From positions 248,001-312,000 of the forward strand of contig JAURFE010000002.1 of assembly GCA_030827135.1 (NCBI GenBank): a stretch of 64,000 bases of DNA, read 5' to 3'. The notes under the pieces are model-generated. The model was given only the letters and a program-made list of their open reading frames with translations, ran no database searches and was not told where the DNA came from. Shown piece after piece: positions 27,221 to 35,837 of this stretch (positions are counted from its first letter, which is position 1; each line of letters starts with the position of its first letter). Both the position numbers and the translations under genes were made by a program. This stretch comes from Vicinamibacterales bacterium. GTDB lineage: Bacteria > Acidobacteriota > Vicinamibacteria > Vicinamibacterales > SCN-69-37.

Positions 27221-28087
27221 TCAGCGGGGTTTGCAGACACCCTTCAGCGGACACTGGGTGTCGCGCTGCTTGGTCTTGTAGCCGCACGCGCCCATCATGC
27301 TGAGGTGGCAAAGGGAGAAGTCGTAACGGACGGGGTCCGCCGGATCGAGGGTCCGCAGCGCGGCGGTGATTTCGGCGGCCATCTTCCACCCAGGTGATGC
27401 GCGTCTGGTGAGGCGCAGACACTTCCCTGTTCGGATGGTGTGGGTGTCGAGCGGAATCACCAACTGGCCTGCGTGTGGTGTGGCCCATCCGCCGGGGTCG
27501 ACACCATCGGTGCGGACCATCCAGCGCAGGAACAGATTGAGTCGCTTGCACGCGCCGCCGCTTGAAGGGCGGCTGAAGAAGAAGTACACGCCAGGGGCTT
27601 TCGGCACTTTGCCATACGCCGGCTTCAGATCGATCGCCCGCGCGCGTTCGGAGAATGACTCGAGAGCGTCCGACACATCGGCCGACTCCACGCGCCACCC
27701 CTTGGCGAAGTACGCCTGAAGCGAGCCCGCCTCGCTGATCATCGTCTTCAGGATCCACAACAGCGCCACAATGTCGCGGCCGCGAATCCAGCGATGCACG
27801 ATAGGCAGGAGTCTGGCCGAGTGGGTGGCCGGATCAAAACGCCGAATGAGGTCCGCCGGGCGCGGGCCCAACACGGCACAGACGGTCTCGATTGAGTTGA
27901 CCACCGATTGCACACGGCCGAACGCGAGGCCCGCGGCGATGAATGCGATCAGTTCGCGGTCGTCGACCCGTTCGTAACGACGGACGACCTGAATGGGATC
28001 GAACGCGGAGTCAGGGTGATCAAAAGAGGCGTAGAGTTCGTCGAGCCTGGACTTCTGGACTCCTGGACTCCTGGACCCCTGCACCAC
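27221..28087 (-). CDS. TIGR02757 (DUF2400) family protein
   Basis: 288 residues if started at GTG 28087, which overlaps the TAG stop of the upstream OPRT-like gene (TAGTG). Family motifs: FDPIQVVRRYERVDDREL, IAAGLAFGRVQSVVNSI, KRLNLFLRWMVRTDG with VDPG, LVIPLDTHTIRTGKCLRL, FSLCHLSMMGAC and a C-terminal Cys cluster (CQCPLKGVC-like). These proteins resemble HhH-GPD base-excision glycosylases with an FeS-like Cys set; the reaction is not established. An octamer repeat (28048-28081) lies just after the start and would encode VQGSRSPGVQKS. No start codon exists between the repeat and the conserved region. Confidence 0.8.
   Translation of the reverse strand: MVQGSRSPGVQKSRLDELYASFDHPDSAFDPIQVVRRYERVDDRELIAFIAAGLAFGRVQSVVNSIETVCAVLGPRPADLIRRFDPATHSARLLPIVHRWIRGRDIVALLWILKTMISEAGSLQAYFAKGWRVESADVSDALESFSERARAIDLKPAYGKVPKAPGVYFFFSRPSSGGACKRLNLFLRWMVRTDGVDPGGWATPHAGQLVIPLDTHTIRTGKCLRLTRRASPGWKMAAEITAALRTLDPADPVRYDFSLCHLSMMGACGYKTKQRDTQCPLKGVCKPR
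28048..28081. repeat. octamer repeat inside the 5' end of a coding region
   Basis: Four tandem octamers on the plus strand: TGGACTTC, TGGACTCC, TGGACTCC, TGGACCCC. On the minus strand this is a GGAGTCCA-type repeat related to the GTCCAGGG arrays at 48372-48409 and 49905-49923. It lies between the proposed GTG start (28087) and the first conserved residues of the TIGR02757-type protein. Confidence 0.8.
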
Positions 28088-28686
28088 TAGAAACTCGTGA
28101 TCGCTGTGCCGGCTTTGCAGAGCGGACACGCGTTCGCCGGGTGATTTTCCGGCGCCGGGTAGTCCACAAGTGCAACATTCGGCACACCAAGATCAACCAT
28201 CGCGTTGAGACGGTCGCAGATTTCAGCCGTGGCCACGACCGTGCCACCCGCAGCCTCGATCAGCGCCTTCGCCTTCTCGAACGTCTTGCCCGTATTCCGC
28301 ACATCGTCCACCAGCAGCACGCGACGGCCCCTGACAACCTCACAATAAAACGGGCGCAGCACCAGCGCGCCGTGGCTGTCGGTGGACACAGGGGCGAACT
28401 GCAGGGCCGGCTGACTGAGGGGCCGCCGACCATCAAGCAACCCCACCATCGTGTGGCCCAGCAACGCACCACCGAGCACCGGACCGGCGACCACGTCCGC
28501 CGACGCCACCACATCACCAGGCAGCGCATCGATCAGGTCCTGCGCAAATCGCCAGATGGTGGACGGATGCTGGAACAGGCGGTGCGGGTTCAGGTACATG
28601 CTGCCGTGATAGCCGTTGCCATAGTCGAAATGGCCGTTGACCATCAGGACGCCGTGGTCGGTCAGACGCTGCAAGTGGGTATTCAT
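28087..28686 (-). CDS. second orotate phosphoribosyltransferase-like protein
   Basis: 199-residue PRTase. PRPP loop VLLVDDVRNTGKTFEKA; VVAGPVLGGALLGHTMVG; C-terminal NACPLCKAGTAITSF, matching the tail of the pyrE product at 13427. The flexible loop differs from standard OPRT and the N-terminus (HFDYGNGYHGSMYLNP) fits an OPRT-like hood. Placed downstream of pyrR-pyrB-pyrC on the same strand, with a 45-base gap containing a repeat. Either a true paralogous PyrE or a PRTase for another pyrimidine or purine base. Confidence 0.8.
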   Translation of the reverse strand: MNTHLQRLTDHGVLMVNGHFDYGNGYHGSMYLNPHRLFQHPSTIWRFAQDLIDALPGDVVASADVVAGPVLGGALLGHTMVGLLDGRRPLSQPALQFAPVSTDSHGALVLRPFYCEVVRGRRVLLVDDVRNTGKTFEKAKALIEAAGGTVVATAEICDRLNAMVDLGVPNVALVDYPAPENHPANACPLCKAGTAITSF

Positions 28687-28724: not shown

Positions 28725-28750
28725 CAACTCCTCAATCCTCCATCCTCAAT
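28725..28750. repeat. AATCCTC-type repeat at the pyrC 3' end
   Basis: CAACTCCTCAATCCTCCATCC and following bases form the same repeat family as 8318-8390 and 35823-35890. It encodes the last residues of PyrC (LLRMED) and its TGA stop. Confidence 0.65.
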
Positions 28751-30066
28751 AACTCCGTTCCAGGCACTATTGGATTGCTATACAAGACCCGTCCACCGAC
28801 GATCGTCGCGGCGACGGCGCCCGTGAGGGACCAGCCGTCGAACGGCGAGTTCTTCGACTTCGAGACCAGATCGGCCGTATGGATGGTGACCTGAGTGTCT
28901 GGAGAGAGAATGGTGATGTCGGCGGGTTCACCTTCGCGCAGGGTGCCGCCCGGGAGCTTCAAGAGCGACGCCGGGTTGCACGTGAGCAGCGCCACGAGGC
29001 GAGGCAGCGACAACACCTCACCGTGCACGAGACGATCGAGACAAATCGGCACGCAGGTCTCGAGACCGACGATGCCGAACGGCGCATGGTCAAATTCCAG
29101 CGCTTTTTCGTCGGCGTGGTGCGGGGCATGGTCGGTTGAGATGACGTCGATCGATCCGTCGCGCAGGCCGTCAATCATTGCGAGTCGATCGGCCTCCTCG
29201 CGCAGCGGCGGATTCATCTTGTAATTGGTGTCGTAGCCCGCCCCCTTCCTGAGGGCCTCATCCGTCAGCGTGAAGTGATGCGGGGCGACTTCACAGGTGA
29301 CCTTGATCCCGCGGGACTTGCCCTCGCGCACCGCCCGCAGCGTCTGCCGGGCGCTCATGTGCGCGATGTGCACGCGCCCGCCGGTCATCTCCGACAGGCT
29401 GATGTCCCGTTCCGCCATGATTGATTCCGCCACGCTGGGAATGCCGCGCAGGCCGAGCATCGCGGCCACGGCGCCTTCATGCGCGACGCCGTCACCCTTG
29501 AGCGACGGATCCTCGCAGTGCTCAATGATCGGCACGTCGAACATCGACGAATATTCCAGTGCGCGGCGCATCAACATTGCCGTCCGCACCGGATGCCCAT
29601 CGTCGGTGAACGCGACGCAGCCGGCGGCACTCAGGTCGCCCATCTCCGTCATCTGGTCGCCCTTCTGCCCGACCGACACGGCGCCAATCGGGTACACGCG
29701 CGCGAAGTTGGCCTCCGCCGCACGCTTGAGGATGAACTGCGTGACCGAACTCGAGTCGTTCACGGGATCGGTGTTGGGCATGCACGCGACGGCCGTGAAG
29801 CCGCCGACGACCGCCGACCACGTGCCGGTGGCGATCGTCTCCTTGTGCTCCTGACCGGGTTCACGAAGGTGGACGTGAATGTCGATCAGTCCGGGTGTGA
29901 CCACCCACGCCTTCGGGACCTCCACGACGCGTGCGTGGCCGGCCGGGATGTTCTTGCCGATCCTGGCGATCCTGCCGTCGGTGATCAGCACATCGAAGTG
30001 CCCGTCACGTCCCGCGCCCGGGTCCACAAGGCGTGCGTTCTTCAACAACAAGCTCTCAGTCGTCAT
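28732..30066 (-). CDS. pyrC: dihydroorotase
   Basis: 444-residue type I dihydroorotase, which cyclises N-carbamoyl-aspartate. Zinc-site motifs: [21 protein letters not shown] (His-x-His), [23 protein letters not shown] and [12 protein letters not shown] (final Asp). C-terminal [14 protein letters not shown] and [14 protein letters not shown] are normal for the family. The last six residues and stop lie in an intergenic-type repeat, so the native end may have been altered. Its ATG overlaps the pyrB stop by 4 bases. Confidence 0.96.
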
Positions 30067-31001
30067 GACAGGTCCTCACCGGCCAGCAGGTACAACACGG
30101 CCATCCGCACGGCCACGCCGTTGGCCACCTGATCCAGAATCACCGACCACGGACCATCGGCCACTGCAGAGTCAATTTCCACGCCGCGGTTCATCGGTCC
30201 CGGGTGCATCACGATGACATCCGGCGCGGCTCGTTCGAGCCGCGCCGGCGTCAATCCGAACAGCGTGAAATACTCGCGCACCGACGGCAAAAACATGCCG
30301 TGCATCCGTTCGTTCTGCACGCGCAGCATCATCACGACATCGGCGCCGGCCACGGCCTCATCAATCGAGGTCGTCACGTGCACACCCAACTGCGTGAGCC
30401 CGAGCGGAATCAACGTTGCCGGGCCGCACGCCCGCACTTCGGCGCCCATGCGTGTCAGCAACAGCACGTTTGAGCGCAACACGCGGCTGTGCAGCAGATC
30501 GCCGATGATGGCAACCTTCAAGCCCGCCAACCGTCCCTTGCGCTCGCGAATCGTCAACGCGTCAAGCAGCGCCTGTGTCGGATGTTCATGCGTGCCGTCA
30601 CCTGCATTCACGATGCCGGCCTTGCAGATCCGCGACAACAGATGCGGCGCGCCGGACGAGGCATGGCGGATGACGATGATGTCGGGAGACATGGCTTCAA
30701 GGGTGCGCGCCGTGTCGGCGAGGGTTTCGCCCTTCGAGACACTGGAGCCGACCGCCGTCACGCCCATGGTGTCGGCACTCAACCGCTTCTCGGCCAGTTC
30801 AAACGAGAGTCGCGTGCGGGTACTCGCCTCGAAAAACAGATTCACGACCGTGCGGCCGCGCAGCGCCGGCACTTTCTTGATCGTGCGGGCGCCGATTTCC
30901 TTCATCGCCTCGGCGGTCGAGAGGATGAGTTCGATTTCTGATGGTTCGAGGTCGGCGATCCCGAGCAGGTGCCGGCTGCGGAGACGGGTGGCGGCCGTCA
31001 T
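30063..31001 (-). CDS. pyrB: aspartate carbamoyltransferase catalytic subunit
   Basis: 312 residues; condenses carbamoyl phosphate with aspartate. [13 protein letters not shown] is the carbamoyl-phosphate STRTR loop; [13 protein letters not shown] and [12 protein letters not shown] complete the site; [11 protein letters not shown] is the aspartate-domain segment and [13 protein letters not shown] the C-terminal loop. No pyrI regulatory subunit is visible. It overlaps pyrR and pyrC by 4 bases each (ATGA), so the three are translationally coupled and under the pyrR leader. Confidence 0.97.
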
Positions 31002-31543
31002 GATGCCGACTCCACGTCGTGCACTTCGACATCGTCATGCCCGTCAATTTCAGCCAGATGGACCTGCACCGTCTGTTGTCGGGACGTCGGCACGTTGCGC
31101 CCGACGTAGTCGGCCCGAATCGGCAGTTCCCGATGGCCGCGGTCCACCAGCGCGACCAGTTGAATCGCGCTTGGGCGACCGAAGTCGATAAGTGCGTCCA
31201 GCGCCGCGCGAATCGTGCGCCCGGTATAGAGCACGTCGTCGACCAGGATGATGGTCTTGCCGTCGAGCGAAAACGGAATATCCGTGCGGCGGAGGATGGG
31301 CTGCGGGCCGACCTGATGTTTCATCAGGTCGTCGCGGTAGAGCGTGATGTCGAGTGAGCCGGTGGGCACGGACGCGCCGCCGGCGGTTTCGAGGTTGGCG
31401 GCCAGGCGCGCGGCCAGCGGCACACCACGGGCCCGGATCCCGACAAGGGCCAGATGGTCGACGCCGCGATTCCGTTCGAGTATTTCGTGCGCGATGCGCA
31501 TCAGGCTTCGCCCGATGCGATCGGCGTCCATGACGACAGGCAT
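30998..31543 (-). CDS. pyrR: PyrR, pyrimidine operon regulator / uracil PRTase
   Basis: 181 residues. Binds a specific pyr mRNA hairpin in response to UMP and can also act as a uracil phosphoribosyltransferase. PRPP loop [35 protein letters not shown]; the basic TLYRDDL...[13 protein letters not shown] segment is typical of the RNA-binding face. Start [10 protein letters not shown] has AGAGGGG upstream. First gene of the leftward pyr operon, directly behind a PyrR-type hairpin, so autoregulation is expected. Confidence 0.95.
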
Positions 31544-31598
31544 GTGTCCCCTCTTTGCGGCCTCGCAGGACCACGTTAAAGAAGCGAAAGCAAGTGTA
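31544..31598 (-). promoter_or_regulatory. pyr operon leader with PyrR-binding hairpin over the RBS
   Basis: Read on the minus strand: a -10 box TACACT (31593-31598), then GUGGUC / GGCCGC arms around hexaloop CUGCGA; the core GGUCCUGCGAGGCC is at 31572-31559. The CNGNGA loop and flanking GG/CC pairs match the known PyrR-binding consensus. The pyrR Shine-Dalgarno AGAGGGG (31554-31548) begins 3 bases after the lower stem. No terminator/antiterminator pair fits in the ~43-base leader, so control by blocking translation, as described in mycobacteria, is the likelier mode. Confidence 0.7.
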
Positions 31599-31603
31599 AC
31601 GCA

Positions 31604-33358
31604 CTATCGCTCGTGCGTCGAGATGAACGTCACGGGGTACTCGCGCTGATAGGCGCGAACGAAGATATCAGTGCGGGCAAAGCCATCCATGTCCCGGCCG
31701 ACGGGGAGGCCGAGGTAGTACAGCACTGTGGGCGCGAGGTCCACGATCGAGCCGCGTGCAAGCTCGGCGTGCGCAACATCGCGGCCGAACGCGAGCAGGA
31801 ACCCGTCGGGGGCGCTTTCATGGCTTCCGGACAGCTCGGGCGCACCCAGGAGTCGCGCAAGCACACGCTTGGGCAGCGTGACCGGTTCCATGCCGAATCC
31901 GGACACGACCAGCAGCAGATCGCCGGGACGAAGACGCGCGAGCTCAAAGCCGACCTGACGGTCAAGGTCCTGGTAGGTCGCGTCAAACAGGGCGGCGTCA
32001 CCCGAGCGACGGCCGGCGGGCCGAGCCGGATCGCCCGCGCTCCAGTCGGCGTGCGACACGGCGTCGACGCCGGTCAGCCGCAGGGCGGTGACATGCGGCG
32101 CAAACAACGGCTCGAGTTCCACGGCGACGTCGCGGTACACGCGATCCCACTGAGCCCGGGGGTCGCCGACGACGGCTTCGGCGGCAGCGACCACCTCGCG
32201 CGTGGCCTCGGGCAACGTGGTCGCATCAAAGACTTCACGGGCAATGTCCACCGCGCTGGTGGGCGCACCGGCCCGCGCATCCGACAGACGGAGTGGCGAA
32301 CTCGTGCCGAGGTGGAACTGATCGCTGATCAGATAGCCGCGCGCCGACGTCACCGGAAAGGTCAGAGGCCATCGCACGATGCCTGAGGCGAGCCCGTAGT
32401 CGGCCATGATGTCCCAGAGCATGCGGGCACGGATGTCGTCACGCGTGCGACGTGCCGCCTGGATGTACTGCTGGTAGACCAGGCCATACGCAAAGCAGTA
32501 GTCGGGCAGCAGGTCGACGACCTCGGTGTCGGTTGGGGACACCCGGAAGACCGCGTTGGTGCGCACGCCATTTTTCACGGGGTACTTGCCGGTGGCGGCG
32601 GCGGTCCAGACCGGCTCGGCCTGTGTCGGCTTGAGCGTGGCCAGGTCCATGACCGCACCACGATCGAGAATGCGGCCAAGGTTGGGAAGCCGGCCGGCGC
32701 CAGCCTGATCGCGAATGACGCCGAGGCTCGCGCCGTCAATCAGCAGCAGCCGCACACGAGGCGCCACCGACGCCAGCATCGAACTCTGACCGGCCGCCAC
32801 CAGCGCGGGCGTGACCGCACGACGCACCACGGGCACCGGCACCTGCCCCGGGCCTCGCACCCACAGCGGCACCGCGATCGACGCGAGCAACGCGACGGTC
32901 AGCAACACGCCGGTGGCGCGACTGCCCTTCTGGCCGAACGAGTACCGAAGCACGGCGATTCCCAGCAGGACCACAGCGGCCACGGTGCCCGCCACAGCGG
33001 CGGTCTGCATGTGGCCCGACGCCGACTCGCCCAGCACCGCGCGGAACCCCTGGAGGTTTGCCCACGTGATGGCGGCGGAGACGGCGGCAAACATCGCCCC
33101 CAGCCAGGCGAGCAGCCGCACGCTCAGCCACCCGGGGTGCAGCGGCCGCGAGGCCAGCACCTCGCGCCCCAGAATCACGATGTACACCGCCACCGTCAGG
33201 TGAAGGCCGTAAAACGACACCAGCGCGCCGAACCAGCGCACCGTGGTCGGCGACACCAACGGCACCTGCGGATTGAGGATGAGCACGAGTACCGCGATGT
33301 AGATCGCCCCGAGCACGCCGGCCGTGACGGCGTTGGTGAACATGCGCAGGTACCGCAT
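31604..33358 (-). CDS. membrane-anchored type I phosphodiesterase-like protein
   Basis: 584 residues. Start MRYLRMFTNAV chosen by a TACATT box 7 bases upstream and the first TM helix. N-terminal ~200 residues have about six TM segments. The periplasmic part (~220-584) is alkaline-phosphatase superfamily: LLLIDGASLGVIRDQ, LPNLGRILDRGAV, AEPVWTAAATGKYPVKNGV (probable Thr nucleophile zone), VVSGFGMEPV, HESAPDGFLLAFG, VDLAPTVLYYLGLPVGRDMDG. Probably a phosphodiesterase or phosphotransferase on an envelope substrate. It lies between the two halves of the pyr locus without an obvious link. Confidence 0.75.
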   Translation of the reverse strand: MRYLRMFTNAVTAGVLGAIYIAVLVLILNPQVPLVSPTTVRWFGALVSFYGLHLTVAVYIVILGREVLASRPLHPGWLSVRLLAWLGAMFAAVSAAITWANLQGFRAVLGESASGHMQTAAVAGTVAAVVLLGIAVLRYSFGQKGSRATGVLLTVALLASIAVPLWVRGPGQVPVPVVRRAVTPALVAAGQSSMLASVAPRVRLLLIDGASLGVIRDQAGAGRLPNLGRILDRGAVMDLATLKPTQAEPVWTAAATGKYPVKNGVRTNAVFRVSPTDTEVVDLLPDYCFAYGLVYQQYIQAARRTRDDIRARMLWDIMADYGLASGIVRWPLTFPVTSARGYLISDQFHLGTSSPLRLSDARAGAPTSAVDIAREVFDATTLPEATREVVAAAEAVVGDPRAQWDRVYRDVAVELEPLFAPHVTALRLTGVDAVSHADWSAGDPARPAGRRSGDAALFDATYQDLDRQVGFELARLRPGDLLLVVSGFGMEPVTLPKRVLARLLGAPELSGSHESAPDGFLLAFGRDVAHAELARGSIVDLAPTVLYYLGLPVGRDMDGFARTDIFVRAYQREYPVTFISTHER

Positions 33359-33375: not shown

Positions 33376-33382
33376 CTGAGTG

Positions 33383-34210
33383 ATGCCCGTCGATATCCCG
33401 GCCGAGGTGTTGTCGAACACCCGGTTGTCTCCCGATTACAACGTGCTTGCGCTGGAGGCGCCCGACGTGGCGCGCATCGCGGCGCCCGGCCAGTTCGTCA
33501 TGATCAAGACGGCACCCGGGCTTGATCCGCTGCTCCGCCGGCCGTTCTCCATCTTCGAAATCCTGCGCGACGCCACCGGCGCCCCCCTGGGCCTGAGCCT
33601 GCTCAACAAACGCGTCGGCGTCGGCACGTCGCTCCTCTACGACGCACGACCCGGGGATCGCATCAGCTGCCTTGGCCCGCTCGGTCGCCCGTTTGTCCCG
33701 GTGGATGCGCCGGCGCAGGCGTGGATGGTGGCCGGCGGCGTCGGCCTCGCCCCGTTTGTCACACTGGCCGAGGCGCTGGCCGCGCGAGGCACGTCGATGA
33801 CGCTGTTTTATGGCGGACGCAGCGCTGCGGATCTCTACCACGCGGAATTCTTCGAGACCCTGGGCGCGCGGCTTGTCCTGACGACCGAAGACGGCAGCCG
33901 GGGGGAACGGGGGCGCGTCACCGGGCCGCTGGCTCGTGAACTCGCCGCGCTCCAGCACGACACGCCGGTCACGCTCTACGCCTGTGGCCCCACGCCGATG
34001 ATGCGCGCGGTCGCCGACCTGGGCGCCGTCCACGGCCGGCCGTCGTTTGTCTCGCTGGAACCCGTGATGGGCTGCGGCATGGGCGGCTGTTACAGCTGCG
34101 TCGTGCGCGTCACACGCCCCGGCGGCACGCACCTCGTCCGGTCGTGTATCGAGGGCCCGGTCTTTGATTCGTCCACATTGGTCTGGGACGCGCTGCAGGG
34201 AGGCCACTGA
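33383..34210 (+). CDS. pyrK: dihydroorotate dehydrogenase electron-transfer subunit
   Basis: 275-residue FAD/2Fe-2S protein that passes electrons from PyrD to NAD. FAD site GLDPLLRRPFSIFE; NAD-binding VAGGVGLAPFVTLA; ACGPTPMMRAV; four-Cys cluster in GCGMGGCYSC...SCIEG. Start at ATG 33383 (GTG 33380 would lie in the same frame). Its stop overlaps the pyrD start (TGATG), forming a class 1B pair. Confidence 0.92.
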   Translation: MPVDIPAEVLSNTRLSPDYNVLALEAPDVARIAAPGQFVMIKTAPGLDPLLRRPFSIFEILRDATGAPLGLSLLNKRVGVGTSLLYDARPGDRISCLGPLGRPFVPVDAPAQAWMVAGGVGLAPFVTLAEALAARGTSMTLFYGGRSAADLYHAEFFETLGARLVLTTEDGSRGERGRVTGPLARELAALQHDTPVTLYACGPTPMMRAVADLGAVHGRPSFVSLEPVMGCGMGGCYSCVVRVTRPGGTHLVRSCIEGPVFDSSTLVWDALQGGH

Positions 34211-35127
34211 TGGCAGACCTCTCCGTCCCTATCGGGTCCCTCACACTGAAGAACCCGGTCATCGCCGCCTCAGGCTGTTTCGGCTACGGCGTCGAATACT
34301 CGAAGGCCTTCGACATCTCGACGCTGGGTGGCGTCGCGGTCAAGGGGCTCTTCCTCAATGAACGCGAAGGCCACGCGCCCCCGCGCATCGTCGAGACGCC
34401 GGCAGGCATGCTGAACGCGATCGGGCTGCAGGGCATCGGCGTGCATCGGTTTGTCGCCGAGAAACTTCCGGAACTGCGCGCGCTCGGCGCCACGACGATC
34501 GTCAATGTCTGTGGCACCACGATCGACGAGTACTGCGAGGTCTCACGCATCTTGTCGGACCACGAAGGCGTCCATGCGATCGAGCTGAACATCTCGTGCC
34601 CGAACATCAAGGAGGGCGGCATCCAGTTTGGCTGCAGCCTCATCGGCACACACGACGTGGTGTCTGCTGTTCGCAAGGTCACGTCGCTGCCGCTCATTCC
34701 GAAGCTGACGCCGAATGTCACCGACCCGGCGTCGTTTGCACGCGCATCGGAAGAGGCCGGCGCGGATGCGATCTCGCTGGTGAACACCTTCCTGGCGATG
34801 GCCATCGATGTGGAGACCCGCCAGCCGAAGCTCACCAACGGCATGGGCGGCCTCAGCGGTCCGGCGATTCGCCCGATCGCGGTGCGGATGGTGTATGAGT
34901 GCCGGCAGGCCGTGAAGATTCCGATCATCGGGATGGGTGGCATCGCCACCGTCACCGACGCGCTCGAGTTCATCATCGCGGGCGCCAACGCGGTGCAGGT
35001 GGGCACCGCCAACTTCGTGGAGCCGCTGCTCTGGCAGGGGCTCATTGACGGGATCAACGCCTACCTCGACCGCCATCAACTGGCCGGGGTGGGCGACCTT
35101 GTCGGTCAGGTCAGGTCCGGAAAATGA
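34210..35127 (+). CDS. pyrD: dihydroorotate dehydrogenase, class 1B catalytic subunit
   Basis: 305-residue FMN TIM barrel oxidising dihydroorotate to orotate, NAD-dependent with PyrK. NPVIAASGCFGYGVEY, KGLFLNEREGHAPPRI, LNISCPNIKEGG, PLIPKLTPNV, VNTFLAMAIDVE, GGLSGPAIRPIAVR and GMGGI/VQVGTANF phosphate loops are all present. Overlaps pyrK by one base and pyrF by 4 bases. Confidence 0.95.
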   Translation: MADLSVPIGSLTLKNPVIAASGCFGYGVEYSKAFDISTLGGVAVKGLFLNEREGHAPPRIVETPAGMLNAIGLQGIGVHRFVAEKLPELRALGATTIVNVCGTTIDEYCEVSRILSDHEGVHAIELNISCPNIKEGGIQFGCSLIGTHDVVSAVRKVTSLPLIPKLTPNVTDPASFARASEEAGADAISLVNTFLAMAIDVETRQPKLTNGMGGLSGPAIRPIAVRMVYECRQAVKIPIIGMGGIATVTDALEFIIAGANAVQVGTANFVEPLLWQGLIDGINAYLDRHQLAGVGDLVGQVRSGK

Positions 35128-35837
35128 ATCCCATTCTTGTGGCACTCGATGTGGCGTCGGCCCGTGAAGCGCTCGCCATGGCCGATGCGCTGCGGGGCAC
35201 GGTCGGCGGCTACAAAGTCGGCAGCCAGCTGTTCACGGCGGAAGGCCCGGACATCGTGCGGGCGCTCACCATGCGCGGCGACAAGGTGTTTCTGGATCTG
35301 AAATTCCACGACATCCCGAACACGGTGGCCGGCGCCATCGCCTCGGCCAGCCGCCTCGGGGCGTGGATGATGAACGTGCATGCCGCCGGAGGCCCCGCCA
35401 TGATGGCCGCCGCAAAGGCGGCTGCCGATACGGCGGCGGCTGGGGGTCACGCGCGACCGGTCGTCATTGCCGTGACGGTGTTGACCAGCATGGACGAGGC
35501 CACACTGCGGGCGGTCGGCGTCGACACGTCCCCGCTGGAGCAGGTCGTCCACCTCGCACGGATGGCACAAGATGCCGGTCTCGACGGCGTGGTGGCTTCG
35601 CCGCTTGAAACGGCCGCCATCCGCGCGGCGTGTGGTCCGGATTTTCTGATTGTGACGCCGGGCATCCGCGGCGGCGCAGCCGGCGACGCCAAAAACGACC
35701 AGTCCCGCACGATGACCCCGGATGAGGCCATGCGTGCGGGCGCGAGCTACCTGGTCGTCGGGCGACCAATCACGGCCGCAGCGGAGCCCAGGGTGGCCGC
35801 GGGCGAGATTGCCGCGGCGGCGTCAATTGAGGACTGA
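35124..35837 (+). CDS. pyrF: orotidine 5'-phosphate decarboxylase
   Basis: 237 residues; decarboxylates OMP to UMP. Catalytic DLKFHDIPNTVAGA (Asp-Lys-Asp); VALDVASAREALAM start; VTPGIRGGAAGDAKNDQSRT and SYLVVGRPITAAAEP phosphate-binding end. The C-terminal SIED and stop fall in an AATTGAGGA repeat shared with other intergenic sites. Last gene of the pyrK-pyrD-pyrF operon. Confidence 0.96.
   Translation: MNPILVALDVASAREALAMADALRGTVGGYKVGSQLFTAEGPDIVRALTMRGDKVFLDLKFHDIPNTVAGAIASASRLGAWMMNVHAAGGPAMMAAAKAAADTAAAGGHARPVVIAVTVLTSMDEATLRAVGVDTSPLEQVVHLARMAQDAGLDGVVASPLETAAIRAACGPDFLIVTPGIRGGAAGDAKNDQSRTMTPDEAMRAGASYLVVGRPITAAAEPRVAAGEIAAAASIED

Follow-up and report, generated by a model that had tools for sequence, protein, structure and literature searches.

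Most documented cases of pyrimidine-gene control by PyrR bound to RNA are from Firmicutes and mycobacteria. The Bacillus pyr operon has three attenuator sites, and the PyrR-binding loop is said to consist of a CNGNGA hexaloop closed by a C-G pair, a GC-rich upper stem, a 5' bulge and a lower stem. In Mycobacterium smegmatis, PyrR reportedly represses the pyr operon at the level of translation, by means of a hairpin over the first ribosome-binding site and with no attenuator. Regulators may also reach a main gene through a short upstream open reading frame (uORF). In E. coli, CsrA masks the Shine-Dalgarno sequence (SD) of a uORF with a stop that overlaps the start of iraD (PMC5574718); in M. 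tuberculosis, a B12 riboswitch, uPPE2 and PPE2 form a relay (PMC11260477), and Rho is reported to act on an Mbox-uORF leader when the uORF is untranslated (PMC12810186).

Here, we compare these systems with the leader of a pyrR-led operon found in a window of DNA (the whole stretch that was analysed, 64,000 nucleotides) from the 3.24 Mb genome of a member of the Acidobacteriota (order Vicinamibacterales; G000). From sequence comparison we consider it very probable that the hairpin in this leader is a PyrR-binding RNA operator, mediating UMP-dependent translational repression of pyrR-pyrB-pyrC(-pyrE) by masking of the SD. As a PyrR translational operator the window element would be of an already known kind; a uORF relay in its relatives, described below, would be new as far as a search of the literature goes, which left out most subscription journals and listed no paper on PyrR with a uORF.

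The pyr operon and its leader in the window

The operon lies on the minus strand. Its first gene, pyrR (30998..31543), encodes a regulator/uracil phosphoribosyltransferase (NF003549, E 3.2e-75; PDB PyrR 1non, E 1.3e-64) that is full length and near the solved PyrR proteins. It is followed by pyrB (aspartate carbamoyltransferase, 30063..31001) and pyrC (dihydroorotase, 28732..30066), and since pyrR and pyrB, and likewise pyrB and pyrC, overlap by 4 nt, control at the pyrR start can extend to the genes downstream. A pyrE-like orotate phosphoribosyltransferase gene (28087..28686; TIGR01367, E 9.2e-22, below the cut-off of that model) starts 45 nt past pyrC and probably belongs to the same operon. 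Separately, pyrK, pyrD and pyrF are clustered on the plus strand (33380-35837) without a PyrR element, and PyrR in this genome would control only part of the pathway.

The two-part hairpin upstream of pyrR (31550..31584, minus strand) was defined from the sequence, the minimum-energy fold and an alignment to the Rfam PyrR model, and comprises 13 bp. The lower stem of 7 bp, CUUCUUU/AAAGAGG (31584-31578 with 31556-31550), is given by both the fold and the alignment; above it are a 5' bulge of 3 nt, AAC (31577-31575), and an upper stem of 6 bp in the minimum-energy fold, GUGGUC/GGCCGC (31574-31569 with 31562-31557), which carries the hexaloop CUGCGA (31563..31568, from the sequence and the Rfam alignment). 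The earlier note on this DNA had proposed a core with a CNGNGA hexaloop matching the PyrR consensus, and the loop is indeed there, on the minus strand and aligned by the Rfam model. The GUGGUC/GGCCGC pairing, which it took for the lower stem, is in fact the upper one, with the second, 7-bp stem beneath the bulge. The SD of pyrR, AGAGGGG (31548..31554), is present as the note had it, but lies partly within the hairpin rather than after it, as AGAGG, its first five bases, belongs to the 3' strand of the lower stem. The window has each feature ascribed to the PyrR-binding loop, namely the CNGNGA hexaloop, the closing C-G pair, the GC-rich upper stem and, below an internal bulge on the 5' side, the lower stem.

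Read 5' to 3', the leader consists of a TACACT hexamer (31598-31593), the hairpin (31584-31550), the bases GGACAC and the pyrR ATG (31543), and only 6 nt separate hairpin and ATG. TACACT (31593..31598, minus strand) is the probable -10 hexamer, as judged from related sequences. Among 69 leaders (70 rows less L170, a duplicate of L033), 62 have TANNNT 13-20 nt before the element, 31 of them at -13 and 18 at -14, against a mean of about 2 per offset; a general promoter scan of the window region found no promoter. This position would put the start of the transcript at about the base of the hairpin, near 31585, and give a leader of about 42 nt, close to the 43 bases of the earlier estimate. In three leaders of family f2, genus g19 (L139, L159, L167), a small GC-rich inverted repeat (e.g. 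GCGGAG..CTCCGC) lies between the -10-like hexamer and the PyrR element, and these transcripts may start with an extra 5' hairpin.

The fold energy of the hairpin is unremarkable, as 18/200 shuffles of a 55-nt stretch and 60/200 of a 63-nt stretch fold as well (z -0.5 to -1.6 for hairpin stretches), and we set it aside as uninformative; that the element exceeds chance follows from the comparative evidence given below, the genome search and covariation. A scan against Rfam at the gathering threshold gave no match in the window. The Bacillus subtilis pyr attenuator model, RF00515, aligns end to end with the element through loop, bulge and both stems at 26.7 bits, against a gathering score of 54, and by Rfam's own rule the element is not a member of that family. 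The model has 115 positions and reaches well past the hairpin.

The window shares with the Bacillus subtilis attenuator the CNGNGA-loop binding hairpin, the bulge and the two stems, and differs from it in having neither an antiterminator nor a terminator between hairpin and gene, in its output, which is the SD, and in its score below the Rfam cut-off. Transcription attenuation of the B. subtilis kind, in which the PyrR-bound hairpin acts as an anti-antiterminator and a terminator forms before pyrR, would use the same binding hairpin, and terminator-like stems do follow the hairpin in some leaders farther afield (7/11 of other Acidobacteriota, 13/50 of Actinomycetota). In the window, however, the hairpin-ATG gap is 6 nt and a terminator scan of 31380-31700 found none; within the order, terminator-like stems were found in 0/21 leaders of the window's type and 3/48 of the uORF type. 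We therefore hold attenuation at this locus to be very unlikely, in agreement with the earlier view of the leader as too short for an attenuator. The window, known by its sequence, has the layout of the M. smegmatis operator: a PyrR-type hairpin on the first ribosome-binding site of an operon led by pyrR, and no attenuator. The two differ in phylum and in the SD, GAAGGAGG in M. smegmatis and AGAGGGG in the window.

Conservation, covariation and proposed action of the element

The earlier note had suggested a search for the element upstream of pyrR in relatives, and had named loss of the loop and stem in close orthologues as evidence against it. In a first set of 60 genomes, the window's own included, pyrR was matched in 59 (none in G054), and with two loci on contigs without a leader (L008, L026), 57 genomes were evaluable. 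The element was present upstream of pyrR in 56 of these; in the other (G051, locus L137) pyrR is present with no recognisable element. Four metagenome-assembled genomes of another collection (L033-L036) also carry it before pyrR. Six other species of the genus were fetched, one on a contig that begins inside pyrR, and the five with a readable leader all keep the CNGNGA loop and stem, one with a single C-A mismatch. None of 60 genomes of the order reaches the RF00515 cut-off. RNA control by PyrR would be an order-wide trait within the Acidobacteriota that the Rfam cut-off misses.

In a MAFFT alignment of 60 elements (A1), lower stems fell out of register where the bulge was 3 or 4 nt. Covariation and a covariance model (R1) are based on 33 of the 60, all of 41 nt; the window element, of 40 nt, was left out and one congener is included. 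In these 33, five of the six upper-stem pairs changed on both sides (22 such cells), and pairing reached 96.0% of cells against 90.6% in shuffles, with 0/500 shuffles as high on any measure. Pairing fell to 39-54% when the partner was slid by 1-3 columns, and RNAalifold, unprompted, returned the same 12 pairs. The loop bases C, G, G and A and the closing C-G pair were invariant in 33/33 aligned elements. Compensatory changes are confined to the upper stem. As the lower stem hardly varies, covariation supports the upper stem only.

The G-U pairs point to an element that acts as RNA. They argue against a DNA-level operator or promoter palindrome, for which the place of the element directly after a -10-like hexamer could be cited; so do the asymmetric bulge, the conserved single-strand loop and a spacing that is fixed to a start codon while that to pyrR varies, and we regard such a palindrome as extremely unlikely. 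A plain SD-sequestering hairpin that works without PyrR, by constitutive damping, by temperature sensing or through another RNA-binding protein, deserves slightly more weight but is still very unlikely. The AAGAGG hexamer of the SD has a paired probability of 0.98 in the RNA alone, without any protein, and the near-invariance of the lower stem would suit such a device. However, a covarying stem topped by an invariant closing pair and invariant loop bases would be unexpected of it, as would the match to the PyrR family, the detection of Bacillus sites by R1 and a location before pyrR or pyrC.

Those Bacillus sites come from a positive control, a search with R1 of 75 loci that hold pyrR in other phyla. 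Four loci of the Bacillus group (L086, L087, L099, L111) gave three sites apiece, the first upstream of pyrR, the second shortly behind it and the third about 1.5 kb farther, matching the three attenuators of the Bacillus pyr operon. Searched against the whole window genome, R1 recovered the pyrR-leader element (31547-31586) at 39.8 bits (E 2.1e-7) as the one strong site. The next best match (L142), at 20.8 bits and covering model positions 13-31 only, was taken as chance.

In a sample of the phylum, R1 matched 41/42 genomes of the order, 31 of those 41 being also in the first set; the one without a match (G313) also gave no pyrR match. Among class-mates outside the order, R1 matched 0/4 genomes, and in all four, examined by eye, pyrR follows another gene with no element just upstream. 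Of the other genomes of the sample, 14/350 matched at E <= 0.01. A second element occurs in two genomes (G329, G381), in both cases before a split-off pyrC, and this links the element to the pathway and not to pyrR alone. In one of these (G329, locus L180, reverse strand near 2480-2490), the split-off pyrC seems to lack an ATG, reading ATAA where a relative (L181) has ATGA, in which the pyrC ATG is shared with a uORF stop; this may reflect a sequencing error, or pyrC may start at ATA or at another codon. In six loci (L018, L024, L025, L031, L114, L122), a five-base loop (CGAGA) or another change replaces the CNGNGA hexaloop and the stems are kept.

Translational repression by PyrR is the best reading of the window element because of its conservation, its covariation, the sites found in the Bacillus group and the absent terminator. 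At high levels of uridine nucleotides, PyrR would bind the CNGNGA loop and upper stem, by analogy together with UMP. The bound protein would keep the lower stem closed, hiding the pyrR SD so that no ribosome starts on pyrR, and since the starts of pyrB and pyrC each lie within the end of the preceding gene, translation of the whole set would drop. When UMP is low, ribosomes would compete with the unbound hairpin and the operon would be expressed. With the SD paired so fully in the RNA alone, translation start without PyrR is not explained by folding alone. In this scheme we infer the binding of PyrR, its dependence on UMP, the repression and its spread by coupling. Translational control of pyrR-pyrB-pyrC had been thought likely in the earlier note, and every part of that view that sequence can address agrees with it.

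Direct and uORF leaders within the order

The leaders of the order are of two types. In 21/69, including those of the window's genus, the hairpin AAGAGG is the SD of pyrR itself; this 3' arm is kept in 21/21 such direct leaders, 5-9 nt before the pyrR start. The remaining 48 leaders have the hairpin at a greater distance upstream of pyrR, over the SD of a uORF that starts 2-9 nt past the hairpin, has 9 to 99 codons, reaches pyrR and shows no common peptide by eye. Treating leaders as independent, as do all our counts of frame, stop and codon 4, the uORF has the same frame relative to pyrR in 45/48 (binomial p 2e-18), and its stop falls within -5 to +16 of the pyrR start in 46/48 (exceptions L024 and L114). 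Shuffled leaders of equal length and frame had a mean of 25.0 and a maximum of 35/48 stops near the start in 2000 trials, and with random frame a mean of 9.2 and a maximum of 20 of 48. The hairpin is kept in three leaders of family f11, genus g15 (L028, L112, L121) with AAGATC or AAGAAC as its 3' arm; there the uORF keeps its frame and stop but has no SD or a very weak one.

In most cases the uORF stops at a TGATG or TAATG that pyrR codons 4-5 form. Codon 4 has a purine as its third base, a largely silent position, in 43/48 uORF leaders and 5/21 direct ones (Fisher p 1.3e-7), and the five uORF leaders without it (L015, L022, L113, L140, L178) all stop at another nearby codon. Elsewhere in pyrR, valine codons end in G or A alike in the two types (132/265 direct, 326/702 uORF). 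On a PyrR tree, the architecture label must change about 9 times, with only 2 of these changes forced by well-supported branches, and a phylogenetically paired test of codon 4 against architecture has 2 pairs on well-supported branches, which puts significance out of reach.

Based on these features, an order-wide relay seems likely to us, in which PyrR would gate the uORF and ribosomes terminating there would open or start pyrR, the direct and uORF forms having been interchanged several times; elsewhere in the phylum, where the uORF contains a terminator-like stem, this switch would act by terminating transcription. The only selected features of the uORF would be its SD, its reading frame and a stop at the pyrR start, with a peptide that is not conserved, and the third base of pyrR codon 4 would be kept as part of the uORF stop. 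The window would represent the short form, with the same hairpin directly on pyrR. The uORF stretches are also C-rich and G-poor (C 0.397 and G 0.254, against 0.358 and 0.347 in early pyrR), with C exceeding G in 45/47. When such uORFs are untranslated, Rho could terminate transcription, a composition of this kind being that of rut sites.

A putative regulator site on the uORF SD, with a stop overlapping the main start, is seen in the sequence of 46/48 relatives with a uORF. This is the arrangement reported for CsrA-uORF-iraD, B12 riboswitch-uPPE2-PPE2 and Mbox-uORF; unlike in those systems, the regulator would be PyrR, the uORF peptide of the relatives is not conserved, and the window itself has no uORF, its hairpin sitting on pyrR. 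If the relay is true, one protein-RNA module would have three outputs: direct SD masking, uORF coupling, and uORF with terminator. With the uORF locked in frame and marked by the codon-4 signature, a few point mutations would be enough to test the relay.

Leaders outside the order

Of the 14 R1 matches in other parts of the phylum, 11 loci were fetched. Three are direct (L185, L188, L189); in seven, a uORF reaches pyrR (L182-L184, L186, L187, L190, L191; start codon chosen by hand in L183, L184 and L190), and in L192 it ends 38 nt short. Terminator-like stems occur at L182-L184, L187, L189, L190 and L192. The terminator scan confirmed those of L182 and L187, and did not return a stem seen by eye in L191. 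At the loci with terminator-like stems, classical attenuation is possible on the evidence of these stems.

In the Actinomycetota, 50 of 56 pyrR leaders were looked at, and 44 of the 50 have the hairpin pattern. In 18, a uORF ends within about 11 nt of the pyrR start when that start is picked by eye and the rule is lenient, which indicates that the uORF layout is not confined to the Acidobacteriota. By a similarly lenient rule, with the pyrR start chosen by eye, 11 leaders are direct. Among these is L238, whose PyrR is the closest to the solved PyrR 5iao/1w30, and which shares the layout of the window, with the hairpin on the first ribosome-binding site. Finally, in three actinomycete leaders (L224, L230, L240) the uORF ends at the TGA of a CTGA just before pyrR, where no in-frame ATG, GTG or TTG was found; this sequence suggests that pyrR has a CTG or unrecognised start in these three.
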